Source: Stutzerimonas kunmingensis (GTDB lineage: Bacteria > Pseudomonadota > Gammaproteobacteria > Pseudomonadales > Pseudomonadaceae). From it: a stretch of 64,000 bases of DNA. Shown piece after piece: positions 25,772 through 52,775 of this stretch. The notes under the pieces were generated by a model. The model had not been told where the DNA came from and ran no database searches. It saw only the letters and a list, made by a program, of their open reading frames with translations. How positions within the stretch are numbered: the first letter of the stretch is position 1; each line of letters opens with the position of its first letter. The translations under genes and the position numbers were made by a program. The DNA lies in NCBI RefSeq assembly GCF_002929225.1, contig NZ_PISM01000018.1:1-64000 (forward strand), read 5' to 3'.

Positions 25772-25780
25772 CATCCATTC

Positions 25781-27010: not shown

Positions 27011-27029
27011 CACAAACAAGGACGTAACT

Positions 27030-28017: not shown

Positions 28018-28036
28018 TGCGACACAGGCTGTCGCA
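28018..28036. promoter_or_regulatory. Palindrome TGCGACA-N5-TGTCGCA (site 2)
   Basis: A perfect 7-5-7 inverted repeat (spacer CAGGC) starting two bases after the WYL stop and 48 bases before the 54-residue gene. It probably controls a promoter for that small gene. The same sequence is conserved at the equivalent place in copy 2 (41603). Confidence 0.75.
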
Positions 28037-29061: not shown

Positions 29062-29195
29062 TCCTGCAGCGCCGCCGGCCCTCAGGTCAACTTCACCATC
29101 ACCGTCCAGGCCGTAAGCTCTGACATGGCAAAGGTCACGGCCCAGGCCAGTAACCCGGCTACAAATGCCTGAATTCGCCCACTCAGATGCGTTGA
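29062..29195 (+). pseudogene. Degenerate third copy of the 54-residue gene
   Basis: Broken frames give LLQRRRP, then VNFTITVQAVSSDMAKVTAQ, then PGYKCLNSPTQMR and a stop at 29193-29195. This follows the whole length of the 54-residue proteins at 28084 and 41669, with frameshifts and an internal stop. The remnant overlaps the last codons of recD on the opposite strand. It shows that the small gene was present downstream of recD as well as next to the WYL genes. Confidence 0.75.
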
Positions 29196-37900: not shown

Positions 37901-38399
37901 GATCCCGCCCGGCAGCCCAGTCTTCGAGCCAATCGGCGCGGTACACCTGGTATTGGTCGAACAAGTCCGCCAACCGCTCGCACAGTTGGTGCAGCTTGCG
38001 CTGTTCATCGTCCTTTTCCAAAAAGCGCTGCAGGCTTGCGAAAACCGGGTTCGTGAGCAAGCTGGGCAGCAGGCGCATCAGCCGCCAGCTCAGCGCTGCC
38101 TTGTCCAGCGGCGAGGACTGCGGCGTGGTCTGCGCCCCCAGCACCCCGCGATACACCTGCCACAGAAAGCGCGCAGGCAACTGCACATCCAGCGCCGCAG
38201 CAATGCCGCAGCCACCCTTGTGCGGGTCTTCGGCCAGCGCCAGTTTCAGCCACTGGGCGATACCGTTGCTTTGCACCAGCAGCACCTCGTTCTCCAGCGG
38301 ATGTAGCGGGTGGCTGCGCATCCACTGCACTGCAAGGGCTCGCAGTTCTTCTAGATGATTGCCATGGATGACAACAAGACCAGGCTGATGCTCCTGCAT
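34947..38399 (-). CDS. recC: RecC, Chi-recognition subunit of exonuclease V
   Basis: A 1150-residue subunit with inactive helicase and nuclease folds, which splits DNA strands and reads Chi. Recognisable blocks are GLVVIHGNHLEELRALAVQW, VLLVQSNGIAQWLKLALA, RVVVFGISSMPAQVLEAL, VIVMVPDINAYTPHIEAVFG, VVCLLGMNDGDYPRQ and DPVGAFFSQRLKV. The ATG at 38399 is preferred, with GAGGG about ten bases upstream; a GTG two codons earlier is also possible. It is first in recC-recB-recD. A palindrome identical in plan to those at the WYL gene lies 48-66 bases upstream of the start, so the whole operon may be under WYL control. Confidence 0.95.
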   Translation of the reverse strand: MQEHQPGLVVIHGNHLEELRALAVQWMRSHPLHPLENEVLLVQSNGIAQWLKLALAEDPHKGGCGIAAALDVQLPARFLWQVYRGVLGAQTTPQSSPLDKAALSWRLMRLLPSLLTNPVFASLQRFLEKDDEQRKLHQLCERLADLFDQYQVYRADWLEDWAAGRDQLQHIKGTVQPLDAPNLWQAQLWREVLADVGEGALEQSRAGVHKRFVAHLRSAAQAPKGLPRRVVVFGISSMPAQVLEALKELSRYSQVLLCVHNPCRHHWGDIVADKDLLAHHYRRQPAREVAAAANEHGQPLLAAWGKQGRDYINLLDYHDEPGSYRHLLDGLNGGRIDLFTEPDTATLLGQLQSDILELRPLPETREAWGAVDATADRSLRFHVVHSMQREVEVLHDQLLARFSADKQLSPRDVIVMVPDINAYTPHIEAVFGQVPRSDSRYLPFTVADQGQRGRQPLLIALEHLLKLPHSRFAASDILDLLDVPALRARFTINEADVPTLQRWIDGAGVRWGLDAEQRESLGMPAGLEQNTWRFGMRRMLLGYAAGRAPQLNGIEPYDEVSGLEAALAGPLLALLDHLEVALQELQQPATPVQWAERLQALLKVFFRPVNDTEELLVNQLLKLLEGWLRTCEVAQFAQPLPLSVVHEAWLSGIEDSGLSQRFLAGAVNFCTLMPMRAIPFKVVCLLGMNDGDYPRQQSPVDFDLMRNDYRPGDRSRREDDRYLLLEAVLSARKQLYVSWVGRNIRDNSERVPSVLIGQLRDHLASGWRSANGQPLLPALTQEHPLQPFSAAYFANEPGPDGLFTYSSEWREVHDEYSSQPAGERLPALVQDTPLSLRQLSEFVRDPVGAFFSQRLKVKFDDDELVNRDDEAFQLDGLENWQHQDRLTQALKRWVEEAYDPEQAVTELGLQVQRLQREGALPLGGFGTLSASALVEPMPGLLARYHAQLQAWPELEEGQSAATIEATDERPGLKDWLGGIRRNALDERAYLQLDSKKLCSDDSLRWQHLVRPWLRHLALQLNGPACTTILVGLNGDVVFRPVPETQAREQLQALLQAWVAGMQEPLPVACESAFAWLAAGGESSDSAYDKARDIYEGGYMKKGEVERSFAQRRAYEDFDQLCASGQFVAWAQRLYGGLFGHFTSTDAGSAQ

Positions 38400-38446
38400 A
38401 GACACACATCCCTCTAGGTACGCTGGAGTGAAAGCTAATCAACGCA

Positions 38447-38465
38447 TGCGACACCCTGTGTCGCA
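38447..38465. promoter_or_regulatory. Palindrome TGCGACA-N5-TGTCGCA upstream of recC (site 3)
   Basis: A perfect 7-5-7 inverted repeat (spacer CCCTG) centred about 57 bases before the recC start codon, where a promoter would be expected. The arms are the same as at the two WYL promoters (26992 and 41044). A repressor bound here would control recC-recB-recD. Confidence 0.75.
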
Positions 38466-38538: not shown

Positions 38539-39132
38539 TCAAATGACTTCAAGCCGGTAGGTATCGGCGTCATCGACCAACTCAAAGAACAGCTCGCCAT
38601 CCGAAGACCGAGGGCTGTCAGATGCGGAGGACCAGAACGAAGAGTGCTGCGTCGCATAGGTACAAAGCGCGGCCACCAACGGATGAGCCTTCCACAGCTC
38701 GGTCAGCTCACGTCGATGCAGGCCCGGCATAAAGAGCGGTGCAAGCTTCTGCTTTTGATCCAACGAAAGCTCAGCCAACTCCTGCCCATGCTGACTGATC
38801 CACTTGCTAATCAAGCGAATGTCGCTGTGGTAGCGCGCATCGGTCACCTGAAGCTGAGCAATACGGATTTTCTGTGGTTCTACAACAACCCTGCAGGCAA
38901 CGTATTCATCACCATCAGCCAGCGGAGCACTGGCATTCAGCAAAGCGAGTTCAGGGGTTGGGCTGGCGTAAATTGCATGCCGGCGGGACGGCATATTTCT
39001 CGGCCGAAGAGACTCCCAGAGGTTGTCGACCACGTAGGGAACATTGCTGGGTATTCGCATCGTTGAGTGACGACGAAGATCTTTTTCCGCCCTCCCCACT
39101 TGGCTGGCAGGAATCGCCCGATAAAGCTCCAT
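38539..39132 (-). CDS. Possible ADP-ribosyltransferase-like protein (toxin-like)
   Basis: A 197-residue protein of uncertain family. It starts MELYRAIPASQVGRAEKDL, and a conserved-looking core VPYVVDNLWESLRPRNMPSRRHAIYASPTPELALLNA follows. An N-terminal YR, a middle YASPT strand and later acidic residues recall ADP-ribosyltransferase or RES-type toxin folds, but the RES signature GGRWN is absent and no catalytic glutamate could be fixed. It follows the 305-residue gene by ten bases with a strong ribosome site (AAGGAG), so the pair forms an operon that may be a toxin-antitoxin or abortive-infection unit (inference). Confidence 0.55.
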   Translation of the reverse strand: MELYRAIPASQVGRAEKDLRRHSTMRIPSNVPYVVDNLWESLRPRNMPSRRHAIYASPTPELALLNASAPLADGDEYVACRVVVEPQKIRIAQLQVTDARYHSDIRLISKWISQHGQELAELSLDQKQKLAPLFMPGLHRRELTELWKAHPLVAALCTYATQHSSFWSSASDSPRSSDGELFFELVDDADTYRLEVI

Positions 39133-39142
39133 TTAAATCTCC

Positions 39143-40060
39143 TTATGGGGAAACCCGGGGAAGCGGCAGAGGGGGGAGATCTGTATCTACGTTGTAACCG
39201 ATCATGAAGAGGGCTTTCTCAAGCTCTGCAATGGAGCCAATGCTTGGGTTGTAGGCCATCACCTGCTGCAGCAACTCTCCTGCAAGCAACACCTGTCCCG
39301 CCCATAGCTGGCACTGAGCGGCATTGAGCTTGCGAAACTTGAACGCCCCCAGCGATGGATCTCTATTCGTCGTGTCGCCTTGTCCGGCCCCCCACCGAAA
39401 GGATAAATCAGCAGGGACGCTAGGTACGCCAGAACGCATGAGTGAATAACGGGCGAGCAATCCAAGTGCAGCACCAACGCGGCCGTCGTAGATAATGATG
39501 TGGTCAGGGTCGGCAGCCGCGTAGACCTTTGTCATAGCGGAATTCATCAGGAGTTCCTTGCCATCGAATGCAGCAAGCCCTTGAGCAGATCCAGGTTGAA
39601 GCAGTTGGACTGCATGCATGATTGATTGGCATAGCGTTTTTTTTAGGTACTGATCCTCGACCCAAGCCAGAGATTTATCACCAGGGCGACGCGCGACGCC
39701 CCCCCAGTGGAATATAGCCAGGCATGCATCGCGGGCAGTTGCTTGATCACGCACAGCTAGCGCTTGCCGTAAACGGGCAGCAATGCATTGGGACGAATTA
39801 GGCTTAGGGCTATCAGGCCAGGAGTAATGGAGAAAGGCCTCCTGAAGCGAATGACACCACCAATGATGAACCGCTGAGGCAATACGCCCTTTCCAAGGCT
39901 TCCAGCTCTGATGTTTGCTAATGCGAAAGCTATGCAGCAGCCCTGCCTCCGAAGCATCTCCCACTGGGAACAAACCACGCATCTCCCCCAGTGCCTCTGG
40001 CCTGCCCCATAAATCAGCCAGGTACCGTGCAAAGGCCTTTTGATTCCCAGTCAGACTCAT
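39143..40060 (-). CDS. Unknown 305-residue protein, partner of the ART-like gene
   Basis: I do not recognise the family. The start at 40060 has a clear ribosome site (GAGGAAGG), unlike the longer frame starting at 40186. The protein is helical and soluble; notable blocks are RISKHQSWKPWKGRIASAVHHWW and AMTKVYAAADPDHIIIYDGRVGAALGLLAR. The second block resembles helix-hairpin-helix glycosylase-like proteins, but that is only an impression. It is the first gene of a two-gene operon next to recC and downstream of the Sel1-like gene on the same strand. Confidence 0.6.
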   Translation of the reverse strand: MSLTGNQKAFARYLADLWGRPEALGEMRGLFPVGDASEAGLLHSFRISKHQSWKPWKGRIASAVHHWWCHSLQEAFLHYSWPDSPKPNSSQCIAARLRQALAVRDQATARDACLAIFHWGGVARRPGDKSLAWVEDQYLKKTLCQSIMHAVQLLQPGSAQGLAAFDGKELLMNSAMTKVYAAADPDHIIIYDGRVGAALGLLARYSLMRSGVPSVPADLSFRWGAGQGDTTNRDPSLGAFKFRKLNAAQCQLWAGQVLLAGELLQQVMAYNPSIGSIAELEKALFMIGYNVDTDLPPLPLPRVSP

Positions 40061-40125
40061 TCCCTTCCTCTTAGTCCTAACCCCAGCACCTATTGATATC
40101 GCTGCAGGGGCATAAAGCCAGCATG

Positions 40126-40998
40126 CTATGAGCTTTTGCATACTTGTTGAATAGCAACATCCGATGCATGCAACTCTCTGGCCCACAAGCTTCCCTGGCT
40201 GATCGCCAGATCCCGCCAGAAACGAAACAGCAGCCCATCTGGATCCGGTGGAGACTCGAAGGTAGAAAAGTAAAATTCAGCAAGTCGCTCAGTCGCCAGC
40301 ACCAGCCCCCTCATGGCCGCCCACTGCAGCCAATACAAGCCAAGTGCTGGATCATACTCGGGTGATGTCTCATCCAGAGCCAACCTGCCAAGTGAGAAGC
40401 ACGCCATCAAGTCCTGCTCGGCCGCTCCACGCTTGTACCAACTGATGGCTTTGCCATGATCGACGATGACACCCTCGTCCCCACGCTCATACAAGCTCCC
40501 TAATGCTTGCGCAGCACAGGGAATCCCTGCTTCGAAAGCCTGCTCGTAATAGTCGATGGCCAAGCCCGGATTGACCACCAGCCCCTTGCCATAAAAGGCC
40601 AGCTCGGCGAGGTTGAATAGAGCCTCTGAGGCTCCCATCACTGCCGCAACCTTGAATAACCGCCTGGCCAGCGCAGGGTTCGGCTTCAGCCGCAGACCAT
40701 TGAGCCAAAACCACCCTAGATCATTGAGCGCATCCGCATCGCCCAACAGAGCCTGCTCACGCAGCTCCACATAGCGATTTCGAATCCTGATCGGATCAAC
40801 CAATCCAAGAAGCGGATTGGCTGCTTTTATCTCGTGATAGGTAACACCCGCCTGCCCGCTTAGCTCCTTCGCTCTCAGCGATGGCATTCCAATGCCAGCG
40901 TAAAGGCGTTGCAACTCGTCAGGCCCAGCTAGATCGACGTCTTCAGCCAGCGGAAGAAGGTTATCCATGAGATTGAAGACATCCGCAGATTTGCTCAT
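40126..40998 (-). CDS. Sel1-like repeat protein (intact copy)
   Basis: A 290-residue protein. Residues 1-80 are a helical N-terminal domain (MSKSADVFNLMDNLLPLAED). From about residue 85 come five or so Sel1/TPR-like repeats: LGDADALNDLGWFWLNGLRL, GASEALFNLAELAFYGKGLV, IPCAAQALGSLYERGDEGV, DLMACFSLGRLALDETSP, and LVLATERLAEFYFS. Such repeats bind proteins. The start has its own promoter region shared with a divergent, broken WYL gene, with the operator palindrome 46-64 bases upstream. It is the intact version of the remnant at 26611-26947. Confidence 0.85.
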   Translation of the reverse strand: MSKSADVFNLMDNLLPLAEDVDLAGPDELQRLYAGIGMPSLRAKELSGQAGVTYHEIKAANPLLGLVDPIRIRNRYVELREQALLGDADALNDLGWFWLNGLRLKPNPALARRLFKVAAVMGASEALFNLAELAFYGKGLVVNPGLAIDYYEQAFEAGIPCAAQALGSLYERGDEGVIVDHGKAISWYKRGAAEQDLMACFSLGRLALDETSPEYDPALGLYWLQWAAMRGLVLATERLAEFYFSTFESPPDPDGLLFRFWRDLAISQGSLWARELHASDVAIQQVCKSS

Positions 40999-41043
40999 GC
41001 TGCTGCCTCATCGATGATCGTGTCTGACCATTTTCAACAGCCA

Positions 41044-41062
41044 TGCGACAGCCTGTGTCGCA
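41044..41062. promoter_or_regulatory. Palindrome TGCGACA-N5-TGTCGCA (site 4)
   Basis: A perfect 7-5-7 inverted repeat (spacer GCCTG) between the intact Sel1-like gene (start 40998) and the broken WYL gene. It is kept although the WYL gene beside it is dead, which suggests the Sel1-like gene is still regulated through it, presumably by the intact WYL protein from copy 1. Confidence 0.75.
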
Positions 41063-41081
41063 CACAAGTAGGGATGGAATT

Positions 41082-41601
41082 GTGGAACAGCTACTCCGCC
41101 ATGAGCTCATCCTTGGCCTTCTCCCTAGCAAGGACAGCGCTCTCGATAGCAATGCCATTCACCAACGAGTAGCCAACCAAGGCGTCCAGGTTGATAAACG
41201 CACCATTCAACGTGACCTCAGCGAACTCGAATAGAAATTCCCCCATGTGCACAGCAGGCCCAAGGGCAAAGCAAAACTGTGGTGGGCAGAGAAATCGCTA
41301 TCGCGACTGAGCATGCTGCCAACAGATGCGATGAACCTCGTCATGATCATGGAGCACGCTGCTAGATTCGGAATGGCGGCGCAGGTAGAAAATCTGGCGC
41401 CCCTTCGGGATTACGCGACATCACTGTTGAAAGGAAACCGGCCTAGCCAAGACTGCTCAGGCAAGGTCATCAGCAACACCCGCTTCGTTGTCCTGGAACC
41501 AGGTCAGGTGAAGCCAGAGGTACTGGAGGTTGTCCAACAAGCACTTCTGCATGATGGCCTTATCGGCGCATCGGATGGCGGCACTGTACGAACAAGGTTG
41601 A
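41082..41601 (+). pseudogene. WYL regulator pseudogene (copy 2)
   Basis: Nearly identical to the intact WYL gene at 27030-28016 but broken twice. A CAG codon has become TAG at 41232-41234, and about 470 bases covering most of the WYL domain and C-terminus are deleted (joined near 41560). The last few bases before the stop match the end of the intact gene again. No functional product is expected. Confidence 0.92.
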
Positions 41602-41602
41602 A

Positions 41603-41621
41603 TGCGACACAGGCTGTCGCA
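41603..41621. promoter_or_regulatory. Palindrome TGCGACA-N5-TGTCGCA (site 5)
   Basis: Same sequence, including the CAGGC spacer, as the site at 28018, and at the same place: just after the WYL stop and 47 bases before a 54-residue gene. It may drive that gene and the pPIWI-RE operon downstream. Confidence 0.75.
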
Positions 41622-41668
41622 TACCCAACCCATTCTGTCTCCTGTCATCTGACCATGGAGACTCAGCT

Positions 41669-41833
41669 ATGACGACTTACTTTGCCTTCCTGCAACGCAG
41701 GACACCCAATGCGGGCCCACGCGCTAACTTTACAATCACGGTACAGGCCGTCAGCTCCGAGATGGCTCGCGTCACGGCAGAAGCCCAATACCCCGGTTAC
41801 AAGTGCGCAAACGGCCCCGTGCAGGTGCGCTAA
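41669..41833 (+). CDS. 54-residue conserved small protein (copy 2)
   Basis: Begins MTTYFAFLQRRTPNAGPRAN and ends PGYKCANGPVQVR; it has the same length as copy 1 at 28084 with about a dozen substitutions. The frame is intact although the neighbouring WYL gene has decayed, and most visible changes keep similar residues. It is followed two bases later by the 277-residue gene at the head of the pPIWI-RE region. Function unknown. Confidence 0.75.
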   Translation: MTTYFAFLQRRTPNAGPRANFTITVQAVSSEMARVTAEAQYPGYKCANGPVQVR

Positions 41834-41835: not shown

Positions 41836-42669
41836 ATGAACAACGCGCATCGCAAGCGCATGCAGCCTAGCGACTATCTGTACCACCTTTTAAACCAAGG
41901 TGACGATACCGAAAGCGCTAAGACAGAAACGCACCAGAAAGCTCTCAATCTACGGGAACAATACTCGGTAAGCTTCGATATCGCCTTGATCGCAGAAACA
42001 CAAGCCGAAGCTCAGCGACTAGCAGACCAAATACTTGAACTGCCCAAGGCTTATTTCCCCGAAAGCATCACCTGTCTCGACAGGCATCGTTTTTCTGCTC
42101 ACGGACTAGACGAACCTTGGCCTGAACAGCAATTTGATGAGCTTCATTTTTTCTGCTCATCTCCAGACCAGCTACCTCCCGCGAGTCACCTAGATCGACT
42201 AGCAGCCATCATCCACGTCCATCATTTAGCCCCATGCATGGCACAAGCATATCCGGGTTATCGCAGCTATCTATGGTGCACTGAGCAAGCTCTGTGTGAC
42301 TTCTGGGCAAGCATGTACTTAGCAAGAGAGATGCAAAGCATCCCAGGGTTGAACTGGAATAGTTACCCCACATGGCAGCTGCCTGAACACTGCATTGGTC
42401 AAGCAGCAACTAGCTGGGGCTCAACACCAAATGCAGCTATAGATTCATTACTAGCGCAGGCTGGGCATACAAGACTCACTACTACGGTCGATGCAATCCT
42501 CGTAATAGAAGGCAATTGCGATATGTCGATAAGCGACTATTTCGACCTATTGATCCTGCTAGAGGCCAAAATCAAATGCGATATCGCACCCACTGGATGG
42601 GTAGCCCCTGAATACTCAGGTTATGGCCTAAAGCTGCTCACATTCGGCCCACTTAAAGACCAAAGTTGA
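41836..42669 (+). CDS. Unknown 277-residue protein preceding the pPIWI-RE module
   Basis: I do not recognise the family. The start is taken at ATG 41836, directly after the small gene; ATG 41860 is an alternative. The protein is soluble, rich in Trp, His and Leu, with blocks FDELHFFCSSPDQLPPASHLDRLA, HHLAPCMAQAYPGYRSYLWC and AQAGHTRLTTTVDAILVIEG. No TM helices, Walker motifs or zinc sites are evident. It is 18 bases upstream of the REase gene of the pPIWI-RE module on the same strand, so it is probably transcribed with it and may be an accessory factor. Confidence 0.6.
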   Translation: MNNAHRKRMQPSDYLYHLLNQGDDTESAKTETHQKALNLREQYSVSFDIALIAETQAEAQRLADQILELPKAYFPESITCLDRHRFSAHGLDEPWPEQQFDELHFFCSSPDQLPPASHLDRLAAIIHVHHLAPCMAQAYPGYRSYLWCTEQALCDFWASMYLAREMQSIPGLNWNSYPTWQLPEHCIGQAATSWGSTPNAAIDSLLAQAGHTRLTTTVDAILVIEGNCDMSISDYFDLLILLEAKIKCDIAPTGWVAPEYSGYGLKLLTFGPLKDQS

Positions 42670-42687
42670 CGCAGTGGAGAACAGTGC

Positions 42688-43725
42688 ATGGATAAACAAC
42701 AACCTGAGCATTTGCTGCAACTCCTCGCTCAAGGCGCATCACTCAGCAGTAAGAACAGGGCACTGGCGTTTCCCTTGCTGCAGCGGGCTTGCGCCCTGCT
42801 CTGGCGTCTTGAGCCTGTTGGCTACCCAATGTCAGCCATAGAATTGGAGCGCAAGCTAAGCGTTCCCCTTGAGGACTGGCTGTCTTCGGCTATCAGGGCC
42901 GACTACTCAGGCCCCTTACTGTATTCCAACATCGCCACGCAAACCTGCAATGAGATGCTGCTTGAGCTCGACGTAAGGGAGCTGTGGGAGCAAGTCCAGG
43001 CCAGCGTAAACCGGGTCAAGCAAGCGTGCCGCCTTCGGGCTGACGGTGAGACACACTATCGAAACTTCCGGTTGTTTCTGATTGAGCATGGCGTGATCGT
43101 GCCCTTCCAGGCCCAAGAATCCTTCGTTTCACTCAATCTTTCTCTAAGCGAGTTCTACGAGCCCATCCCCCCTCACCTGCACCATAACGGGCTTCTGTAT
43201 CTATGTCCCGAATGCAAATGGCCGATGAATGCTCAGCGGCACCAGGTCAGTTGCGACTCTGCTTGGTGCCAGGACAAAAAGAGTCTTTTTGTTCGTGATG
43301 GTTCGAGACTGATCAACCGTGTAGACAACAGCATCCTTCTGGGACACCCCGTCGAGGACCGGCTGATGCTCAAACCGCCATTATGGAAATTCACGCTCCA
43401 ACCTGGACTGCTTGAGGTTGCGCTCGCAAGCGCGCTCGTGGCGAAAGGTTTGGAGGTGCAGCTGTGGCCTGATGTGGATCGAACGGATCTGCGTATCCGT
43501 CTTGGCCACGCTTACCAGGATATTGATGCCAAGGTCTGGATATCGTCCTACGAGCTGGCCAAACACATCGAATCAATCCCTTCGAGCAAGCCTCGCTGGA
43601 TCGTAATCCCGGATTACCAGATGCAAAACATTCCCCTGCTCCGCCAACGCTGCCCTGCAGGGGTTGCGGTCTTCACGCAGAGCCAGTGCGTAAGGGAGGC
43701 ACAAAAACATGCAGCCCCTTTCTGA
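42688..43725 (+). CDS. pPIWI-RE module REase-fold protein with zinc ribbon
   Basis: A 345-residue protein. After a helical N-terminal region it has a four-cysteine zinc site (CPEC near 173, CDSAWC near 190) and a C-terminal restriction-endonuclease-like domain (about 225-330) with LEVQLWPDVDRTDLRIRLG and the catalytic-type DAKVW (about 280), then PRWIVIPDYQ. This matches the REase component described beside pPIWI-RE proteins. It overlaps the helicase gene by 17 bases. Predicted role: nicking or cleaving target DNA chosen by the pPIWI-RE protein. Some acidic residues of the nuclease core could not be assigned with certainty. Confidence 0.72.
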   Translation: MDKQQPEHLLQLLAQGASLSSKNRALAFPLLQRACALLWRLEPVGYPMSAIELERKLSVPLEDWLSSAIRADYSGPLLYSNIATQTCNEMLLELDVRELWEQVQASVNRVKQACRLRADGETHYRNFRLFLIEHGVIVPFQAQESFVSLNLSLSEFYEPIPPHLHHNGLLYLCPECKWPMNAQRHQVSCDSAWCQDKKSLFVRDGSRLINRVDNSILLGHPVEDRLMLKPPLWKFTLQPGLLEVALASALVAKGLEVQLWPDVDRTDLRIRLGHAYQDIDAKVWISSYELAKHIESIPSSKPRWIVIPDYQMQNIPLLRQRCPAGVAVFTQSQCVREAQKHAAPF

Positions 43726-46700
43726 CATTAGTACAACGCTTTTTCTCGCCCTGGCTGCGCGATATGTGGGCAGTGAACCCATGCTGGCCGATGCAGCAGC
43801 TCTCTGCGCGGGCCGAACACGCGGCTGGAGCACCTGGTGCGCGCTTCAGGACGCTGATCAGCTGCTGATAGCCGAGAGCTTGCGGCTCAGGCCCTCACTT
43901 GTAGCCCAACCCAAGCGTTTCCTGATGAGCGCCGAGGCGATTATCAAAGGTGAACGCAGCCCCTTTGAGTTGATCGACGCGAGCAAGCTGAGTGACGAGC
44001 TCCACGAACAGGATTGCTATCGCATATCACCGCACCTGAATGCCGACCAGCTCATCAGGGAATACTTCGAGGCACTCAAGTATGGGCGTGCGACACCGGT
44101 CTATGCCCAGCTCCCAGAGTCTGGGGACGTAGTCCTCAAGCATATCGCTGGAGATCAGGTCAGGGTTTTCGTTGTACCTGAAAGCGAGCGGAGCGTCCTC
44201 GAAGTCGCTGACTGCCACATCCATATCCCCTCATCGCCCGCTGTGCAGGAAATCGAGTGGGAGCTTGGCTCACTACGCGAACTCGCCCAGCAACTCGATG
44301 CAACGCCCAATCTCCACAGCCAACACGAAGCCTCCCTGACCAACATTTGGGGATCAGAACCCAAACGCGCAGCAGACTCGGGCAATTTTTACCGCGTGAA
44401 TGCCCCCACTGGAACCGGCAAAAGCGTTGCCATGGTGATGATGTCGATTGACGCGGCTCGCAGAGGTCACAGAGTCGTGATTGCGGTACCGACGCTAGTC
44501 GAACTGGAAAACACCGTACGTATTCTCAGGCAGTCGCTAGCTGTGGCAGCGGCTGATCTGAAGGTTGCACCATTGCACTCAGCGACGCGGGTCTATGAGC
44601 GTGCACAGATCCAGTTCGCGCAGAGCAATACTGCGTCCGCGTACGACTATGCCTGCCTGCTGGATGCTTACGCGTCCGACCTCCTCGACGTCGAACCCGG
44701 TAAAGAGCCTTGCTTCAACGTTCGGGTATCGACCCAGGAGGAAGGCCGACTTGAGCATTCAAAACGGCTTAACCACTGTCCTTTTCTCTTCAAATGCGGT
44801 CGGACCAGAATGTTGTCAGAAGCTCTTGAAGCCGACATCGTGGTGATCAACCATCATGCCCTATTGTCGGGCACTACGCGCATTCCGCTGTCCGACGCCG
44901 ACCAGTTTCCTGGACCGCGCAGCCTGATCGAGTTGCTGCTCCGGACTGCCCCGGTGTTTCTCGTCGACGAAATCGACGGTCTGCTGAAGTCTGCCATAGA
45001 CAGCAGTGTCATCGAGCTGAAGCTTGGCAACCAGGGTGACAATAGCCCTCTCTTGCGCCTGTTCAATACCGTTGTTGGCCGGTCAAACATACTTGGGATT
45101 GATCGAAGCAGTCTGTACCGGGTGAACTGGGCGCTAACCTATTGCACGCTCAGTGTGAGCCAGCTCATGAACCTTCAGCAGGAAAAATATTTCGAGTGGC
45201 CAAAGAAGGAAACAACCTGGTCAGATGCCGACGACACCTTCATTACCGAAAAGCTGGGAATCAATCGCGAGGAGCTGGAACAGCTGTTCAACAACACGAA
45301 CCGCATACCACCCCACCTGGAAAGGCTAAGTCACCACCTTGCCTGCTGGCGTTCAAACGATGGCGAACACAAGCTTGAAACCCTGGCGGTCAACCTTGGT
45401 CATCTCATCAAGGCATTGTCCGACAGTGGTCTGCTTCCTGCACCGCTGAAAGAGCATGACCAGATCCGCCTAAAAGCATCGTTGATCTTGCGTGGCACGC
45501 TGCTGGTCATCGAAACACACCTGCGAAACCTCCAGGTTGAGCTTTCTGGCTTCGTCAACGCCGAGGTCCCAAACGCTTATGAGGTTCGAAGGAGCATTGC
45601 AGGGCCAGAGCCGTTGAGCCCTACCCCCAACGGCCCCTTGCAGCGGGCCGTGTTTGGCTTCAAGCGGAAAGACAGTAGCGACAATGACTCGACCCTGAAC
45701 GTCGTCGCCATGCGCGGTGATCCGCACAGCACCCTACTTTCATTTCCGGATGTCAGCGCTCTGGGCTATGCCGGTGTGAAACGGTTGTTCATAGGGTTCT
45801 CTGCCACTGCATATTTTCCCGGAGCCAGTGCTTACGACCTTCGAGCCAAAGACTTCATCGACGTTCCGGATGCAGCTGGCCAGATCACCTTCGAGAATGT
45901 CAACCAAACGACCGCCATCTCTGGTGCCGCCTTTGCGGAGCGCAAGTTCCTGGTATCGAAATTTGCCAAAGAAATATGGCCCTGGGCGAAAGCCCGTCTC
46001 CAGAGTCTGGCAAACGACCCAAAGACCCAAGAGCGCGCTCGCCTGCTCTTGGTCACCAACAGCGACACGGATGCTGAAGTGCTGGCCATGACCCTCGCGA
46101 AAATGCAGGGTGGCCCAGGCCAATTGGTAGGCTGGGTGCGAGGACGACAGAGCGAGTACAAGCCATCCTCACTCGAAGCACAGCAAACACTTGTCTACGA
46201 CGACCTGGCGGAATTCACCAGCGGCCGGCATAAGGACAAGACGTTGCTGGTCAGTGCGCTTGGCCCTATGGCGCGCGGCCACAACATCGTAAACGCCGAT
46301 GGTCTTTCGGCGATTGGCGCCGTAGTGATCTGCGTCCGTCCACTGCCCTCTTCGGACAGCCCAAACAACAACCTTGCCCATATCTGCTACGAGACGGGGA
46401 AAGCGGTTGCCTTCTACAGCAGCCCTGGCTTGCTGATGATGCAGGAGCGAAAGCATTCCAATGCTCTCCTACAAAGTATTCGTACCGCACGCCCGGCGTT
46501 TAGCCAGCAACCGGATAACATCCGTCATTACACCATCATGAACATCCTGGTGAGCCTCACTCAACTCATCGGACGGGGGCGTCGAGGAGGTACTCCGGTA
46601 ACTTGTTACTTCGCTGATGCCGCGTTTCTGAATGGCCTCAAGCCTTGGCACGAGATGCTCAACGAGAGCGTCCATCAACTCAAGAAAGATGGGGATTGGG

Positions 46701-46780
46701 ATCAGTTCGAACGTCACCATGCCGGCGTCGCATCAGCACTTCTGAAATACATCAATGAATCCAGAAAGGACGCGAGATGA
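43709..46780 (+). CDS. DinG-type SF2 helicase of the pPIWI-RE module
   Basis: A 1023-residue helicase. An N-terminal domain of about 210 residues is followed by Walker A NAPTGTGKSVAMVMM (about 231), the motif VIAVPTLVELENTVRI, a DinG-like VVINHHALLSG segment, DEID at about 417, and the C-terminal motif VI with LIGRGRRGGTPVTCYFADA (about 955). Four cysteines for the iron-sulfur cluster of true DinG are not obvious (C-x8-C near CPFLFKC). This protein is the standard helicase partner of pPIWI-RE proteins and would unwind target DNA or nucleic acid hybrids. It overlaps the next gene by ATGA. Confidence 0.82.
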   Translation: MQPLSDISTTLFLALAARYVGSEPMLADAAALCAGRTRGWSTWCALQDADQLLIAESLRLRPSLVAQPKRFLMSAEAIIKGERSPFELIDASKLSDELHEQDCYRISPHLNADQLIREYFEALKYGRATPVYAQLPESGDVVLKHIAGDQVRVFVVPESERSVLEVADCHIHIPSSPAVQEIEWELGSLRELAQQLDATPNLHSQHEASLTNIWGSEPKRAADSGNFYRVNAPTGTGKSVAMVMMSIDAARRGHRVVIAVPTLVELENTVRILRQSLAVAAADLKVAPLHSATRVYERAQIQFAQSNTASAYDYACLLDAYASDLLDVEPGKEPCFNVRVSTQEEGRLEHSKRLNHCPFLFKCGRTRMLSEALEADIVVINHHALLSGTTRIPLSDADQFPGPRSLIELLLRTAPVFLVDEIDGLLKSAIDSSVIELKLGNQGDNSPLLRLFNTVVGRSNILGIDRSSLYRVNWALTYCTLSVSQLMNLQQEKYFEWPKKETTWSDADDTFITEKLGINREELEQLFNNTNRIPPHLERLSHHLACWRSNDGEHKLETLAVNLGHLIKALSDSGLLPAPLKEHDQIRLKASLILRGTLLVIETHLRNLQVELSGFVNAEVPNAYEVRRSIAGPEPLSPTPNGPLQRAVFGFKRKDSSDNDSTLNVVAMRGDPHSTLLSFPDVSALGYAGVKRLFIGFSATAYFPGASAYDLRAKDFIDVPDAAGQITFENVNQTTAISGAAFAERKFLVSKFAKEIWPWAKARLQSLANDPKTQERARLLLVTNSDTDAEVLAMTLAKMQGGPGQLVGWVRGRQSEYKPSSLEAQQTLVYDDLAEFTSGRHKDKTLLVSALGPMARGHNIVNADGLSAIGAVVICVRPLPSSDSPNNNLAHICYETGKAVAFYSSPGLLMMQERKHSNALLQSIRTARPAFSQQPDNIRHYTIMNILVSLTQLIGRGRRGGTPVTCYFADAAFLNGLKPWHEMLNESVHQLKKDGDWDQFERHHAGVASALLKYINESRKDAR

Positions 46781-49128
46781 AGGCTCTTGAGCTACGCACC
46801 AGCCTATTCAAATTTGATGCGACCCAATTGGGGCAAGCCTACCGTGTGGTAATCGGCCCCCAGTATCTCGACGCGTGGCAAGCGCTTCAGGGGCTGGTTA
46901 AAAAGCCACATCCGGGCCTGCCTACGACAGGATTGGAGGAGATGCTTGCGGTTCTTTCCCGGGGCCCCGTAAAGGTGGACCTATTCCCCCAAAAAGAGGG
47001 CGGTGTCTCGGCGATTATCATGCTCTATCCGCTGTCAGTCGACACTATCAACGAGGTACTCCACCTATGGTCGATGGACGTCCTTAGGATTTGGAACGAG
47101 CAACTGGTCGGCATTGAAGGAAAGTTGATCGTCACCGACGTGGTGCCGCTGGATACAAGTCACCTAGTCACGCCTGGAGACATTTCATCGCTCGCGTATA
47201 CGGTCATTCCTTGGCTGGTGGGGCAAGCCCTCATACAAAAGCCCATGCAGGCGGCGATGCCCATCAAGCTGTACCAGGCAGCTGATTCCAGCTTGCTTGC
47301 ATGGGATGACCCTATCGTTTCCGAAAATGATGTCCGATATGCCAGTGCACTGCATGCTATCGAACCGACTCTTGTCTTGCTGCACGGTCGGCCGCAGCCC
47401 TACATCCAGCTACGTGTGAAACTGACCCAGGTGATGCCCAACCTTGTAGGCAAGAAAAAACATGCCTGGGTCAAAACCGGCGACCTGATCGTCAAAGCGA
47501 AGCTCAAAACCAAGAAGACGGTCGAAGGCTGGGAAACTACGTACGAGCACCCTGTCGAGAAGCTGCTGACCTTCATGGGCGTACAGTCGTTTCCTCCAAT
47601 GGTCGACGGCGACATCCCCGTCGACAGCGACGTGAGACCCATCTACGCCATCCCACCGTCGAATCCAATGATTGCGTCAGGCCCTGGCCCGCTGTTCCTC
47701 GACCAAGCCGGCTTTCACCTCCTTACAAGTCTGCCTGGAACGGCTCCGCTTCTGGTCAAGAAGGCGGTGGCTAGCTTACGAGAGGAGAAGGTTGTCACCA
47801 CGGGAGAGGCCGCCAATCTGAACGCGATGGTACTCGCAGCACACGCTGACGTGATGCTGCGGCTACATGCAGCCAGTACCACCCTGGCCCAGGACAGCAA
47901 GTTCTTCGATAAGGTGATGCCTCCTCTCGTGGCACTGACACGCCTGGATGTACCGGACGCGCAGCGAATGCTTGAAGGAAAACATGACAGCAACAGCCTA
48001 AACGACTGGCTAATGAACCATGTGGTGCCCGCGAGCAAGCAGGCTTCTGAAAATGGCGCAAAGGTAATGATCGTTGAGACCAGTACGTCCGCTGCCTCTC
48101 AGGAAGCAGGGCTAGACCCCAAGCACGTCATTCGGAGGGTACTGGCAAAGCACGGCATCGCGACCCAGTTCATCATGCATATCGACCCTGATGCACAAGC
48201 TAAGAGGCGGAAGACCAAAGCGGATGATCGTGATTTCAAAGCTACCAACTCGATCATCGAAGCGATTCGACTAAGCGGGCACCTCCCCGTTCCGACGCCC
48301 AAAGTAAAATCGATGCCGGCGAGCACAACGGTGCTGTCGATTTTGCTGGATAGAATTCAGGATAAAGGCCCGGCCATCTATCTGCCGGTTATCACCCGGA
48401 CGGTGTTGGGCGGGAATAAACCAGAGGTTTTCTGGTTCGAATCTAGCCTAGACTCCAATGGCAAATGGTTCAGCTACGGCGAGGGCTTGGCCGCCATCCA
48501 CGGGACGGACACTCTGCTCAAGCCTGACCAATTGAAGACATTGGTCACCCAATCCTTGCTGGACTGCAAGATCAATTCGAACGACTCGTTGATCGTTTGC
48601 CTCGATGCCAATCTAAGAACCTTCTATGGAGCATTGAAAGATGGCCCCGGGGAGGGTCTTCCTCCCGTCCCATCAGATGCCGCTGTCGTCCGCATTCGAG
48701 CCGATCACCAGGTAGCACAGATCAGCGGCAACCACACCTTGTCTCCCAACTCGGCTCACTACATCGGGACGAAGGTGGGAGCTTTTCAATCTTGCGAGAG
48801 CGCCTCGGTATTTTATTTCGTGTCACCGTCTAAGCAGTACGGCAGCGTTCGCTCACAGCGCGAGAACACAAGATACGACGTATCAGAACGAGACCTGCGA
48901 GATCCATGGCAGCAGTTGGGCGTAACAGAAATCACGATCATAACGCCCGGGGCATTTAGCACTGCGACAGTGATCGCTGAACAGGTCGCCTTGCTGTGCA
49001 GGAACCCTTCACTGTGGGACGGCTACCTGCGTCTGCCTGGGCCCATGCACTTGGGCAAACAAGTAGCGGCAGACCATCCAATTTTGGAAATGCGACGCAA
49101 GTCTGAAGCGAACCGGTATGGAAATTAG
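46777..49128 (+). CDS. pPIWI-RE family Argonaute-like protein
   Basis: A 783-residue protein with an N-terminal X-type domain (MKALELRTSLFKFDATQLGQAY), a middle region (about 330-480) probably equal to MID, and a C-terminal RNase H-fold PIWI-like domain (about 500-783) including NDSLIVCLDANLRTFYGAL, PWQQLGVTEITIITPGAF and the terminal LRLPGPMHLGKQVAADHP. Gene order with REase and DinG-type helicase supports the family call strongly. It is thought to bind guide and target strands. It ends 158 bases before the convergent TerB-type module. Confidence 0.78.
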   Translation: MKALELRTSLFKFDATQLGQAYRVVIGPQYLDAWQALQGLVKKPHPGLPTTGLEEMLAVLSRGPVKVDLFPQKEGGVSAIIMLYPLSVDTINEVLHLWSMDVLRIWNEQLVGIEGKLIVTDVVPLDTSHLVTPGDISSLAYTVIPWLVGQALIQKPMQAAMPIKLYQAADSSLLAWDDPIVSENDVRYASALHAIEPTLVLLHGRPQPYIQLRVKLTQVMPNLVGKKKHAWVKTGDLIVKAKLKTKKTVEGWETTYEHPVEKLLTFMGVQSFPPMVDGDIPVDSDVRPIYAIPPSNPMIASGPGPLFLDQAGFHLLTSLPGTAPLLVKKAVASLREEKVVTTGEAANLNAMVLAAHADVMLRLHAASTTLAQDSKFFDKVMPPLVALTRLDVPDAQRMLEGKHDSNSLNDWLMNHVVPASKQASENGAKVMIVETSTSAASQEAGLDPKHVIRRVLAKHGIATQFIMHIDPDAQAKRRKTKADDRDFKATNSIIEAIRLSGHLPVPTPKVKSMPASTTVLSILLDRIQDKGPAIYLPVITRTVLGGNKPEVFWFESSLDSNGKWFSYGEGLAAIHGTDTLLKPDQLKTLVTQSLLDCKINSNDSLIVCLDANLRTFYGALKDGPGEGLPPVPSDAAVVRIRADHQVAQISGNHTLSPNSAHYIGTKVGAFQSCESASVFYFVSPSKQYGSVRSQRENTRYDVSERDLRDPWQQLGVTEITIITPGAFSTATVIAEQVALLCRNPSLWDGYLRLPGPMHLGKQVAADHPILEMRRKSEANRYGN

Positions 49129-49285: not shown

Positions 49286-51505
49286 TCAGGCCGTCTCCGC
49301 AGGCTGGCTCACTAGAGCCAATGCCAAGGCCTTTGCTCCACCCAAGTCCAAATGCATCGTGGCGTAAGACTGCATGAGTAATGCTGGCGGAAGCACCCAA
49401 TCCCATTTTTCTTGAGCCATGTTCTGTACGTCCGCCAGAACAGCGGATTCATCAATACCGTCCCACTCGGCGATCTCACGCAGCTTGCTTTCAAGCGACG
49501 TCCGATCTCCCTCAACCTCGATGACCAACCCGCTGTTCTCACTGGCTAGTCCGGTGTGCGTCAACAAGATGGCTAGGGCATCGTTTGTCCAATCGCCTCG
49601 CCAGCTGAAAAGGTAAGTCTTACCTCCGCTTTCGGTCATGCTCGAATGTACCAATCCAAGGTCCGAGAAAGCGCTACGTGCCTGAGCTAGTAGCTCTTGT
49701 GCCGTAGTATCAAGATAGGGGTAGACGTCCGCCTCCAACAAGACGCTCCTCATCTCTTGCCGAACCCGATCATGTACACGGGCTCCAAGCCCGTCAAAGG
49801 ACGGGGGAGCACCACCGGGATCGGATCTCACGACAACGACCCTGGCCTCAGTGTCCACGCTCGTTACCCGCCAGCGGCGCCCAGCAAAGATAATTCGCTG
49901 ATCGACGGTCAATGGCCTGGAGACGGGCAATGCGCCAAGTAGTTTGCCATCGCATACCAGGCGGAACTCTTCATTACTGACAAATGCACTGTAGAAGTCG
50001 TAGTGGTTGATCAGGCGTTCCCCCACTACGCCGGGCAGCAGGAGCCCCGATGTTTCCTGGGTTATCAAATCGCGCTCACCGAGGGCACGAAGCAAACTGA
50101 GGAAGCTGCCCTGCTCCACCCCAGTGAACGGACCACTGCGTATCAAGGTGCTCCACAGCTCTGCAGCTGTAGCTCCTCCCCGCTGGGCTATCACCGAGAG
50201 GCACTGCTGTACCAGCGTCGATAAATGAAGGCCATGAACACGAGGAGGCTCGAACCAGCCCTGCATCAACAACCGGATCATCGCGATGCTTTGCAGCAAA
50301 CCCTGGCGAAGTCGATCTGACAGGGGCGAGCCATCGTCTAGCTGACGCTCCTTGCAGTAACTTCGGAGAATGGCTGCCTCTCCCGGACGGCGTCCGGATC
50401 GCCCCAAGCGTTGACGCAAGCTAGCTACCGATGGCGGAGCCCCGATCTGCACTACCGTCTTGATGCTGCCGATATCGACCCCAAGCTCCAGCGTGGTAGT
50501 GCAGACTGCGGTGGCAGGCCGGTCACCGTCTTTCAGCGCTTTCTCAGTTTCCTCTCGAATGTCCTTCGCCAAACTGCCGTGATGCGGCCAGAACTCGTTC
50601 GGTACACCATCCTGCTCGCAACGGCGCCGCAGATTGTCAGCGAACCACTCAACCTGAGTTCGACTGTTGGGGAAGATCAGGTTATTGCTGCCGCGTAGCA
50701 CCTGAAAGAGATGCTCTGCGATGGCATGGTCCGGAGAAAAAACATCGTCACCTTCAGGCTGTACCGGGAGCGCCTTCTTGGACTCCACATACCCTCTGAT
50801 CTGAACCTTAAGTATCTGGCCACTACCCTTGGATTCGATCACCGACACATGATGAGGGGCATTGGGACGCAAGAAGGCAGCAGCCAACGTCATGTCGCCC
50901 AACGTGGCGGAAAGACCAACCCTGGGCAGGGGGCGATCAATGATTGTTTCAACACGATGCATGAGTGACTGCAGCTGCTTGCCTCGCTCACTGCCGATAA
51001 AGGCATGGAGCTCATCCACCACCAGGTACCGCAGGTTGGCAAACAATCCCGCCAGGCTGGTTCCCTTGTTCACGAACAGAGCTTCGAGCGACTCCGGCGT
51101 GATCAGCAGAATGCCTTCCGGGGACTTGAGGAAGCGATGCTTGCGGCTCGCTGAGATATCCCCATGCCAAGCAATGACAGGAAGCTCAAGCTCATCGCAA
51201 AGCCTCGCCAAACGATCCCACTGGTCATTGATGAGAGCCTTCAGCGGGCTGATGTAAAGCACCGCCCCAGGCTTTTCCGTGTCCTGCAGGAGATTGGTAA
51301 GGATGGGCAGAAACGCGGCTTCGGTTTTGCCTGCAGCTGTAGCCGCCGCGATGATGACATCCTGGTCGGCCCCCAAGAGCGCAGGGATAGCACGCTCCTG
51401 GGCATCGCGTAGGGAGGTCCAGCCCTCGGCCCATATCCAGCGCTGGATTCGCGGTTCAAGGAGATCGAAGCCAACCGATTCAGAGCTGGAAGGTGGCAAG
51501 CTCAT
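49286..51505 (-). CDS. Lhr-like SF2 helicase of a BrxD/TerB module
   Basis: A 739-residue DEAD/DEAH-type helicase. It has Q-motif-like WTSLRDAQERAIPALL, Walker A AAATAAGKTEAAFLP (about 52), DELHAF (about 162), GLSATLGD and motif VI RQRLGRSGRRPGEAAI (about 370), followed by a winged-helix/Lhr-like region. The start at 51505 (MSLPPSSSESVGFDLL) overlaps the end of the ATPase gene by 26 bases; a longer frame to 51565 is less likely. It is the last gene of a three-gene operon. BrxD-like ATPases are commonly paired with such helicases in BREX-related systems. Confidence 0.85.
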   Translation of the reverse strand: MSLPPSSSESVGFDLLEPRIQRWIWAEGWTSLRDAQERAIPALLGADQDVIIAAATAAGKTEAAFLPILTNLLQDTEKPGAVLYISPLKALINDQWDRLARLCDELELPVIAWHGDISASRKHRFLKSPEGILLITPESLEALFVNKGTSLAGLFANLRYLVVDELHAFIGSERGKQLQSLMHRVETIIDRPLPRVGLSATLGDMTLAAAFLRPNAPHHVSVIESKGSGQILKVQIRGYVESKKALPVQPEGDDVFSPDHAIAEHLFQVLRGSNNLIFPNSRTQVEWFADNLRRRCEQDGVPNEFWPHHGSLAKDIREETEKALKDGDRPATAVCTTTLELGVDIGSIKTVVQIGAPPSVASLRQRLGRSGRRPGEAAILRSYCKERQLDDGSPLSDRLRQGLLQSIAMIRLLMQGWFEPPRVHGLHLSTLVQQCLSVIAQRGGATAAELWSTLIRSGPFTGVEQGSFLSLLRALGERDLITQETSGLLLPGVVGERLINHYDFYSAFVSNEEFRLVCDGKLLGALPVSRPLTVDQRIIFAGRRWRVTSVDTEARVVVVRSDPGGAPPSFDGLGARVHDRVRQEMRSVLLEADVYPYLDTTAQELLAQARSAFSDLGLVHSSMTESGGKTYLFSWRGDWTNDALAILLTHTGLASENSGLVIEVEGDRTSLESKLREIAEWDGIDESAVLADVQNMAQEKWDWVLPPALLMQSYATMHLDLGGAKALALALVSQPAETA

Positions 51506-52775
51506 CGTCCGCATCCACTTGGGTATCGGCCTCACCGCCTCGATCCGGTGCAATCTCCACGGCACCCAACAGCGTCCGCCAATCAGCGTCAGGATTCTGC
51601 TCCAACACCGCTAGCAGGCTGATGAATGCGGTAATGGTCGTCCGCGGGGTACGGAAGTAGGCCTCACCCATCCGCTGGTTGCAGTGGGCCATAAACAGCG
51701 GCAATGCTTCGTCGGGTAGCAGATAGCGCTCGCTCACGCCTGCCGCGTATACATGACGCAGTTTCTGCAGCAGCACGTAGAAATCCTCAGGCGTCAGACT
51801 AGTGAGGCGTATGACAGGGCCGGACAGATCTACCAGCCCGGACTTGGCGAAGTTATTTTCAGCCAGACGCGACTGCAGCGCCGGATAGCTGTAGAGGCCG
51901 CGGCGAGTATCCATGAGAAATTCGGGTGTACCGCCCAACACAAAACCAAGCCCCTCAGCAGAGCCCTGCAGGGAGTCATTGAGGATACGAAGAATCTGCT
52001 CGTAGTTAGCGTTACGAGCTTGGGTGTTGGAAAGTTTGTACAGGTTCACCAGCTCATCGAGACATACCATCAACCCGCTAAAGCCGGCCAACCGAACGAA
52101 TCGCGCAAGCAGCTTGAGCTGATCGTAGACCGAAGCATCGTCGACGATGGTTCGCACCCCCAGTGCGGTGCGGGCATCTGTCTTGGTAGTGAACTCGCCA
52201 CGCAACCAGCGGATAGCATCAGCCTTGAGCTGCTCGTTACCCTCTTCGAAGCCTTTGCAATAGGCCGCGATTACATCAGCAAAGTCATAGCCGTTGACCA
52301 TCTCTGCCAGTTGGTCGAGATGCTCGCGAATCACGGCCTCACTGTCTTTGCCGGACGCTTTGGCTTCCGTTTTGGCCTGCGCCACGAATTTCTCGACTAT
52401 TCCTTGCAGAGCGCCGCCATCAGGCTTAGTTCGGGTGGACATATTCTTGGCCAATTCGGCATACAGCGAGCGAGCCTGGCCACCAGTAGCATGGAGACGA
52501 CGATCCGGGTTCAGATCGGCATGCATGGTGACGAGCTTGCGCTCCATCGCGATAGAGCGAACCAGGTTGAGGAAGAATGTCTTGCCTGCACCATACTCAC
52601 CGATCACTACGCGGAACGCGGAACCGCTTTCCGCGAGGCGCTCCACATCACGGATGAGTGCTTCCAGCTCCCCGACACGCCCCACTTGAATCAGGTGCTG
52701 GCCTGCACGGGGGACGACGCCGGCGCGCAGGGACTGGATGACCGCATCGCGGTCCTTGGCTCTGATGCTGCTCAT
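51480..52775 (-). CDS. BrxD-like P-loop ATPase (DUF2791 type)
   Basis: A 431-residue ATPase. It has Walker A GEYGAGKTFFLNLVR (about 58-72), the following LVTMHADLNPDRRLHATGGQARSLYAEL typical of BREX-type BrxD/DUF2791 proteins, and Walker B GLMVCLDELVNLYKL (about 236). The C-terminal part (about 300-420) is helical. Its start overlaps the TerB-protein stop as ATGA. It probably forms the motor of a DNA-targeting complex with the helicase and TerB-domain protein. No PglX, PglZ or BrxC genes are nearby, so it is not a complete BREX system. Confidence 0.85.
   Translation of the reverse strand: MSSIRAKDRDAVIQSLRAGVVPRAGQHLIQVGRVGELEALIRDVERLAESGSAFRVVIGEYGAGKTFFLNLVRSIAMERKLVTMHADLNPDRRLHATGGQARSLYAELAKNMSTRTKPDGGALQGIVEKFVAQAKTEAKASGKDSEAVIREHLDQLAEMVNGYDFADVIAAYCKGFEEGNEQLKADAIRWLRGEFTTKTDARTALGVRTIVDDASVYDQLKLLARFVRLAGFSGLMVCLDELVNLYKLSNTQARNANYEQILRILNDSLQGSAEGLGFVLGGTPEFLMDTRRGLYSYPALQSRLAENNFAKSGLVDLSGPVIRLTSLTPEDFYVLLQKLRHVYAAGVSERYLLPDEALPLFMAHCNQRMGEAYFRTPRTTITAFISLLAVLEQNPDADWRTLLGAVEIAPDRGGEADTQVDADDELATFQL

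Follow-up and report, generated by a model that had tools for sequence, protein, structure and literature searches.

Does the uncharacterised gene that stands in front of a pPIWI-RE system belong to that system, or to something else? The locus that raises this question lies in a 64,000-nt stretch of Stutzerimonas kunmingensis (contig NZ_PISM01000018.1, forward strand), hereafter the window, in which all coordinates are given. Here a pPIWI-RE triad is preceded by f277, encoding 277 residues, by p54, encoding 54 residues, and by a palindrome beside a gene for a WYL-domain regulator; the core of this palindrome equals that of the site recognised by the regulator DriD. The original prediction held that f277 may be a new component of the pPIWI-RE module and that the module may be expressed under the WYL circuit. 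We find that f277 is not a pPIWI-RE subunit but belongs to a WYL-p54-f277 unit, part of a conserved gene set that is probably controlled by DNA damage and also includes a second RecBCD. The gene line-up itself was borne out, with p54, f277 and a complete triad following each other as predicted, down to the 18-nt spacing between f277 and PprRE and the overlapping ends of the triad genes:

41043-41672, + strand: WYL regulator, second copy, a pseudogene with an in-frame stop and an internal deletion
41603-41621, palindromic, no strand: DriD-type box TGCGAC-N7-GTCGCA before p54-f277-pPIWI-RE, 47 nt ahead of p54
41669-41833, + strand: p54, 54 aa, under strong purifying selection
41836-42669, + strand: f277, 277 aa, conserved and uncharacterised, starting 2 nt past the p54 stop
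42688-43725, + strand: PprRE of pPIWI-RE (Y domain, REase, zinc ribbon by eye), after an 18-nt gap from f277
43709-46780, + strand: PprDinG helicase of pPIWI-RE (PADLOC), overlapping PprRE by 17 nt
46777-49128, + strand: PprPIWI of pPIWI-RE (X, MID, RNaseH; Pfam, PADLOC), overlapping PprDinG by 4 nt

The triad (42688-49128) is a pPIWI-RE three-gene system by its domains, its strict order and its overlapping or close gene ends. When domain profiles, among them those suggested by the original prediction, were run, REase (PF18154, in PprRE) scored 64.2 bits (cut-off 26.1), RNaseH_pPIWI_RE (PF13032) 64.6 bits (cut-off 25) and MID (PF18157) 44.2 bits (cut-off 26.6); the Y domain (PF18156, 22.7 bits for a cut-off of 26.7) and the X domain (PF13111, 26.8 bits for 30.5) stayed below their cut-offs. 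PADLOC recognised PprRE as well as PprDinG (885 bits) and PprPIWI (466 bits). The succession of REase, DinG and pPIWI-RE is the gene order given in the accessible part of the original genomic description (Burroughs 2013, PMC3702460). This 2013 description was the only one found for pPIWI-RE in the searches made of the open PMC literature, which gave no paper from 2014 or later that combines pPIWI-RE, Argonaute and defence.

Since the REase profile matched, across 369 genomes of the class, in the window's own genome only, the survey was done with PF13032 inside Pseudomonadaceae (398 genomes per search, apparently the same sample for both families). f277, searched with a two-sequence profile that very distant relatives could escape, was found in 17 of these genomes and pPIWI-RE in 11. 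They occur together in four (the window genome, G006, G010 and G054), at near-identical loci whose f277 copies are 97-100% identical and represent one haplotype; a fifth copy lies on a contig of a metagenome-assembled genome (MAG; L067). f277 is missing from all seven other pPIWI-RE genomes of the sample, and pPIWI-RE is missing genome-wide from all 13 other f277 genomes. Because f277 does not co-occur with other pPIWI-RE loci, it is not a member of that system, and the prediction of a new component fails on the very neighbourhood survey that it had called for. Searches outside the family sample found f277 in the window's own genome only (class sample of 229) and, in additional genus searches, in 2 of 149 and 4 of 37 genomes, none of them new. 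One f277 contig (L069) comes from a MAG labelled Flavobacteriaceae; the gene order, and an f277 nearly identical to one from P. mendocina, suggest a mislabelled bin.

What accompanies f277 is another set of genes. We annotated 21 f277 loci (17 genomes and four further contigs, five of the 21 being the window haplotype) with profiles built from the window genes; some flanks are short (946 nt downstream in L053), so the counts cover the flanks at hand. p54 lies directly upstream of f277 in 21 of 21 loci, and in 16 a WYL gene (intact, split or broken) is found no more than 1.2 kb away; of the five loci without one at this distance, two are truncated contigs (L062 and L068). A gene for a Sel1-repeat protein is found in 18 loci, the uncharacterised u347 in 14, and ART197 in 12, while pPIWI-RE follows f277 in five. 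Genes for recC or recB-like helicase-nucleases are present in 12, eight of the recCBD type and four AddAB-like (for the latter, a domain check covered both genes of L070, which is the same as L053, and one gene of L063; L054 and L069 were assigned by the recB profile alone). f277 comes third in a unit, WYL-p54-f277, from which a Sel1 gene usually runs divergently and next to which recCBD or an AddAB-like pair often lies. The cargo behind f277 varies: in L006 (8646-14725) it is a pair of genes for 1334 and 692 aa, with no Pfam or PADLOC match.

The second gene of the unit, p54, was found in 9 of the 56 genus genomes, in 17 places, four of them fragments with a stop. It has no match in Pfam, NCBIfam or PHROGs, nor in plasmids, and is under strong purifying selection in 10 diverged comparisons, the computable ones (dN/dS 0.05-0.11); against the nearly identical G054 copy dN/dS is 0.64, the remaining comparisons were saturated or too close, and three were not comparable by length. 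As a side observation, the p54 leader (41637-41662) could fold into a hairpin (GUCUCC/GGAGAC) that would cover the Shine-Dalgarno sequence. Such a stem is readable in 10 of 18 distinct p54 leaders, and L058 keeps it as GCCUCC/GGAGGC, making translational control possible.

The palindrome proved genuine, with five matches in the window (all exact, though one mismatch was allowed) against 0.01 expected. Written in full as TGCGACA-N5-TGTCGCA, equivalent to TGCGAC-N7-GTCGCA, it occurs exactly five times in the 4.9-Mb genome, always in the window, and not once in the reversed control. One box stands by each of two WYL copies, one before each of two p54 copies and one upstream of a recC gene, at these further sites and genes:

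26991-28016, + strand: WYL regulator, first copy, intact, DriD-like, 341 aa (Pfam WYL, WCX)
26992-27010, palindromic, no strand: DriD-type box at the first WYL copy, exact motif match
28018-28036, palindromic, no strand: DriD-type box before the first p54 copy, exact motif match
28084-28248, + strand: p54, first copy, 89% identical to the second
29183-31270, - strand: recD of an accessory RecBCD (RecD_N)
31267-35040, - strand: recB of the accessory RecBCD (UvrD helicase, PDDEXK_1)
34947-38405, - strand: recC of the accessory RecBCD (Pfam Exonuc_V_gamma, RecC_C)
38447-38465, palindromic, no strand: DriD-type box upstream of the accessory recC, 41 nt ahead of it
38539-39132, - strand: ART197, 197 aa, ADP-ribosyltransferase/RES-like by eye only, no Pfam or PDB match
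39143-40186, - strand: u347, uncharacterised, no Pfam match
40126-40998, - strand: Sel1-repeat protein, 290 aa (Pfam Sel1, E 2.6e-18), divergent from WYL
41044-41062, palindromic, no strand: DriD-type box between Sel1 and WYL, exact motif match

The core of the box, CGAC-N7-GTCG, is conserved well beyond the window. It precedes p54 in all 25 distinct upstream sequences, starting 56-67 nt upstream (two of them have an additional core site at 117 nt), where base shuffling puts its chance occurrence at about 0.003 per sequence. It also precedes recC, at the corresponding place, in all eight module loci that bear one, of which five are the window haplotype and one is a diverged P. citronellolis locus. 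This core and its spacing, which we had derived from the loci before the comparison, equal those of the DriD consensus ATACGAC(X)7GTCGTAT reported in the available excerpt of PMC12340889.

The window recCBD genes encode a RecBCD, as judged from the RecC, RecB helicase-nuclease and RecD domains. They are a second copy: another recC lies on contig C15 of the same genome, and the two are 38% identical where the N-terminal 169 aa can be aligned (408 of 1189 aligned columns identical overall). The window-type recC (at least 95% identity over the N-terminal 169 aa) occurs in exactly five of the 56 genus genomes, those with f277, and all five have a second recC match. At 73-77% identity to the window copy, a recC is found in G026, G009, G024 and G013, in whose fetched stretches neither module nor box was found. 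Three of these (G009, G024 and G013; L163, L164 and L165) have only this second recC type (73-75%), with no housekeeping type at E 1e-20, and RecBCD types may replace each other within the genus.

The regulator itself is recognised by its WYL (31.8 bits, cut-off 21.8) and WCX (59.2 bits, cut-off 23.9) domains in the intact copy, and its nearest solved relatives are WYL proteins (8tp8 and 9pfq at E 1.8e-7, 7tzv at E 1.3e-5). Entry 7tzv is the complex of DriD with ssDNA (single-stranded DNA) and target DNA, according to the excerpt of PMC12340889. This structure and the box core and spacing are the grounds on which we read the regulator as DriD-type. Its two copies have had different fates. The second, in cis to p54-f277, is a pseudogene in three genomes (the window's, G006 and G010) and truncated in L067; the first is intact in the window genome and G006. 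In G054 the second copy is intact (L009 4931-5962) and the first is split; the window's first copy and this intact second copy agree in 316 of 343 aligned columns. A pattern of reciprocal loss, leaving one intact copy per genome, fits the window genome, G006 and G054, not visibly G010, and was not used as an argument. In the window the intact paralogue lies about 14 kb from the broken cis copy, and with that copy broken, the protein from 26991-28016 would have to act in trans. In plasmids, three distant matches to the WYL protein were found, all below 36% identity.

Taken together, we consider it probable, by analogy with DriD, that the accessory RecBCD and p54-f277 are under the control of a DriD-type regulon that senses ssDNA, as is a pPIWI-RE cargo in the window lineage. 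Among the evidence for this model, f277 and pPIWI-RE share only four near-identical loci in 398 genomes; p54, WYL, Sel1 and recCBD/AddAB are the genes that accompany f277; and the box, whose exact form is confined to the window within its genome, keeps its core before every p54 and every recC of the module. In Caulobacter, DriD is an activator stimulated by ssDNA, with didA, bapE, recJ and dnaG among the targets named in the excerpt of PMC12340889. WYL-p54-f277 would likewise be a regulatory unit, probably mobile, under a WYL factor predicted to bind CGAC-N7-GTCG boxes, whose putative targets lie behind these boxes: the accessory recCBD, p54 and the divergent Sel1-u347-ART197 genes. Single-stranded DNA, arising from phage attack or from a blocked host RecBCD, would load the WYL domain. 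The loaded protein, in trans here, would then activate, rather than derepress, Sel1-u347-ART197, recCBD and p54-f277, and pPIWI-RE, 18 nt behind f277, would be co-induced as cargo in the window lineage. A natural trigger would be a phage able to block the host's housekeeping RecBCD, and the circuit may serve against phages; related ideas have been put forward for Gabija (PMC12407980, in excerpt).

Several observations weigh against this model. The N-terminal winged helix-turn-helix of the intact WYL protein is weakly recognised (Arg_repressor, E 0.039), and the protein resembles solved relatives, DriD included, only modestly (34 bits at best). Of the two WYL genes, the one in cis to p54-f277 is broken, and G010 shows no intact copy in the 8 kb fetched. 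No WYL gene lies within 9 kb of f277 in L063, and in L060 and L061 it is several kb off; nine of the 21 f277 loci have no RecBCD or AddAB gene in the flanks at hand. Finally, palindromes with the same core precede recC of the housekeeping type in 12 of 21 loci (L141-L161), 11 of them 95-108 nt from the profile start and 10 in genomes without p54; such a palindrome is found before the housekeeping-type recC of the window genome and of G028 too (L166 6837 and L167 6469). As these sites mostly occur without the module, the recC box must be older or wider than the module, and another regulator may use the same site at the housekeeping recC.

The strongest competitor, which we hold to be possible yet clearly the poorer account, is that the WYL protein is a repressor of the BrxR/CapW kind, keeping the operons off until a signal releases it, and not a DriD-like activator. 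The sites through which BrxR controls a defence island are inverted repeats with a spacer of 5 bp, two of them in its island (PMC9122601, in the portion available). The boxes of the window can also be written with such a spacer, and the unit lies among defence genes; against this, the nearest solved sequences include DriD and the core equals the DriD consensus. Likewise, among the seven PDB sequences matched at E ≤0.01 there is none with a code that we take to be BrxR.

A second alternative concerns the cargo, and bears on the predicted expression of the module under the WYL circuit. That claim is supported by anatomy (a box 47 nt before p54, and gaps of 2 and 18 nt from p54 to f277 and on to PprRE); with the cis WYL gene broken, it would need the intact copy in trans. 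One could suppose instead that pPIWI-RE is a chance neighbour, a neutral insertion behind f277 with its own promoter and no shared regulation. In its favour, none of the seven other pPIWI-RE loci carries a CGACA-N5-TGTCG box, so that the triad does not generally need one, and DriD-type control of pPIWI-RE is suggested in the window haplotype only. What speaks against it is the 18-nt gap and the outcome of a sequence scan for a separate promoter or terminator that would have split f277 from the triad: on the + strand no promoter-like site was found from p54 to PprRE, with a scan that covers Pseudomonas promoters poorly, and the sole terminator-like site is a weak 5-pair stem inside f277 (42071-42084). 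Terminator-like sites are at chance level in the region (12 for 10.9 expected), and promoter-like sites number 2 for 5.5 expected by the same ill-suited scan. The spacing of p54-f277-pPIWI-RE is consistent with co-transcription, and we regard the chance-neighbour explanation as unlikely.

A third possibility is that the unit is a decaying remnant, with a dead cis WYL gene and f277-p54 surviving only as the leader of other genes. WYL is indeed broken in the window, G006, G010 and the MAG contig L067, and in the first module of the window most of Sel1 is gone and no f277 can be recognised (a stretch at 28250-28663, likened by eye to the f277 start, was not matched by the f277 profile). A remnant would not be expected to show the low dN/dS of p54 in 10 diverged comparisons, f277 frames free of internal stops in 17 genomes, box positions that are kept, and an intact WYL gene in the window genome and G006 (first copy) and in G054 (second copy), and we judge this reading very unlikely. 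Last, a role of f277 as a functional pPIWI-RE component, for which the 18-nt gap and the shared strand kept in five loci with the triad might plead, is scarcely tenable given the mutual absence in seven and 13 genomes and the origin of all five joint loci in a single haplotype, even allowing for the two-sequence profile and for the presence among the seven of a PIWI fragment (G107) and of a PIWI gene without recognised REase or DinG (G300).

We looked into what f277 itself might be. It has no match in Pfam, PADLOC, NCBIfam or PHROGs; 14 family members (alignment A2) gave one stray Pfam match in one member; and no relatives were found in plasmids, in PDB sequences by profile (best E 0.015) or, with four queries, in viral contigs. 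Two shallow AlphaFold2 models are of low confidence (pLDDT 48.8 and 50.6 for models 1 and 2). For model 1, Foldseek placed FtsZ chains at ranks 4, 6, 8, 9 and 10 (prob 0.44-0.77), behind methyltransferases at ranks 1-3, and in VIA seven FtsZ entries matched the C-terminal half at Z 4.1-4.7, which by the tool's own grading is common. Model 2 returned no FtsZ in the top 50, with methyltransferases in Foldseek and mostly methyltransferases in VIA. Compared with 30 FtsZ proteins, the f277 profile scored 21.8 (P 0.056) and 10 control families at most 19.1. One of 60 column shuffles was as good, and an unrelated pair, FtsZ and inositol monophosphatase, scored 22.9, so that the likeness is not significant and a lead only. 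The GTP-binding loop of FtsZ and tubulin, GGGTGTG, is absent from all 14 sequences of A2. A more ambitious version of the preferred model, which we advance as a speculation that is quite unlikely to hold in full, would make the locus an inducible back-up immunity: a phage blocks or overloads the housekeeping RecBCD, the resulting ssDNA acts through the DriD-type WYL protein, and this would bring in a RecBCD or AddAB of foreign origin that inhibitors do not affect, together with an ART-like effector, an exchangeable nuclease cargo (pPIWI-RE here) and a p54-f277 division or replication checkpoint, with f277 perhaps a degenerate FtsZ-like protein, analogous to DriD's division inhibitor DidA.

The locus can be compared with several known systems. 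With Caulobacter DriD, as far as the excerpt of PMC12340889 goes, it shares the WYL and WCX domains, the CGAC-N7-GTCG core and a box by the regulator's own gene, as well as DNA-processing targets (recJ, dnaG and the nuclease gene bapE there, the putative target recCBD here). It differs in that the window regulator is strain-variable and lies among defence genes, and in what stands behind the boxes: an accessory RecBCD, Sel1, p54, f277 and, in a single lineage, pPIWI-RE. Like the BrxR/CapW regulators in the available portion of PMC9122601, it heads a defence locus with palindromes before regulator and cargo, but its nearest solved relatives include DriD, its box has the DriD core and recCBD is among its putative targets. 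The pPIWI-RE triad has the gene order, overlaps and recognised domains of the system in PMC3702460 (accessible part), yet its position behind WYL-p54-f277 was observed in a single haplotype. As for RecBCD/AddAB, the RecC, RecB (UvrD and PDDEXK) and RecD domains are shared, and an AddAB-like pair stands in four other module loci, but the window copy is a second, diverged one linked to a WYL module. Searches of the open PMC literature turned up no title on a WYL-regulated accessory RecBCD, and one on WYL, Sel1 and defence returned only unrelated papers.

The other pPIWI-RE loci of the family (15.5-19.5 kb each) contain no p54, WYL or Sel1. Their triad is intact in G050, G179, G187 and G387, and PprRE is split in G223. 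Upstream of this split gene lies an SngA-like gene (L122 2607-5641), whose 370-aa frame covers roughly the first half of the profile; in G300, a u347 homologue (L120 7079-8068) lies about 0.8 kb upstream of the pPIWI-RE gene, with one 239-aa gene between. In the window, the triad has a convergent neighbour downstream:

49286-55255, convergent with the triad: Shango system SngC, SngB, SngA, as named by PADLOC

Shango has no DriD-type box beside it and is not part of the WYL-p54-f277 unit. It also occurs without pPIWI-RE in G036 (L034), and an association of Shango and pPIWI-RE is possible. Inserted genes that look transposase-like by eye interrupt sngC in G006 (L007 13210-18139), and in G010 the PIWI gene is in two pieces (L008 6352-8272): the islands are decaying in some strains. 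Around the unit in other genomes, the L006 cargo pair recurs in L054 (11439-12362, start of the first gene only), inositol-monophosphatase-like genes are often near Sel1 or p54 (L006, L035-L038, L060, L061, L068 and L071), and L063 has a gene that is ADP-ribosylglycohydrolase-like by eye. Elsewhere in the window lie a possible defence operon (20142-26479: an unrecognised 222-aa gene, a 552-aa protein with a weak SLOG-like match, TIR-SAP, an AAA ATPase and small genes) and a type I restriction-modification locus with two different HsdM-like genes and an adjoining type II-like restriction gene (9865-19403).

For the question we started from, the result is sobering, as the neighbour gene is not a pPIWI-RE subunit. 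The locus is ordinary as a pPIWI-RE locus; its interest is as a DriD-type regulon around an accessory RecBCD or AddAB, with two conserved uncharacterised genes and a nuclease attached in one lineage. If the model is true, one circuit would join a WYL regulator that senses ssDNA, a duplicated RecBCD and a pPIWI-RE nuclease, each known separately, and the pPIWI-RE locus would be inducible by ssDNA or by RecBCD-blocking phages. The DNA box offers a handle for finding the rest of the regulon, and p54 and f277 are two conserved uncharacterised families worth testing.

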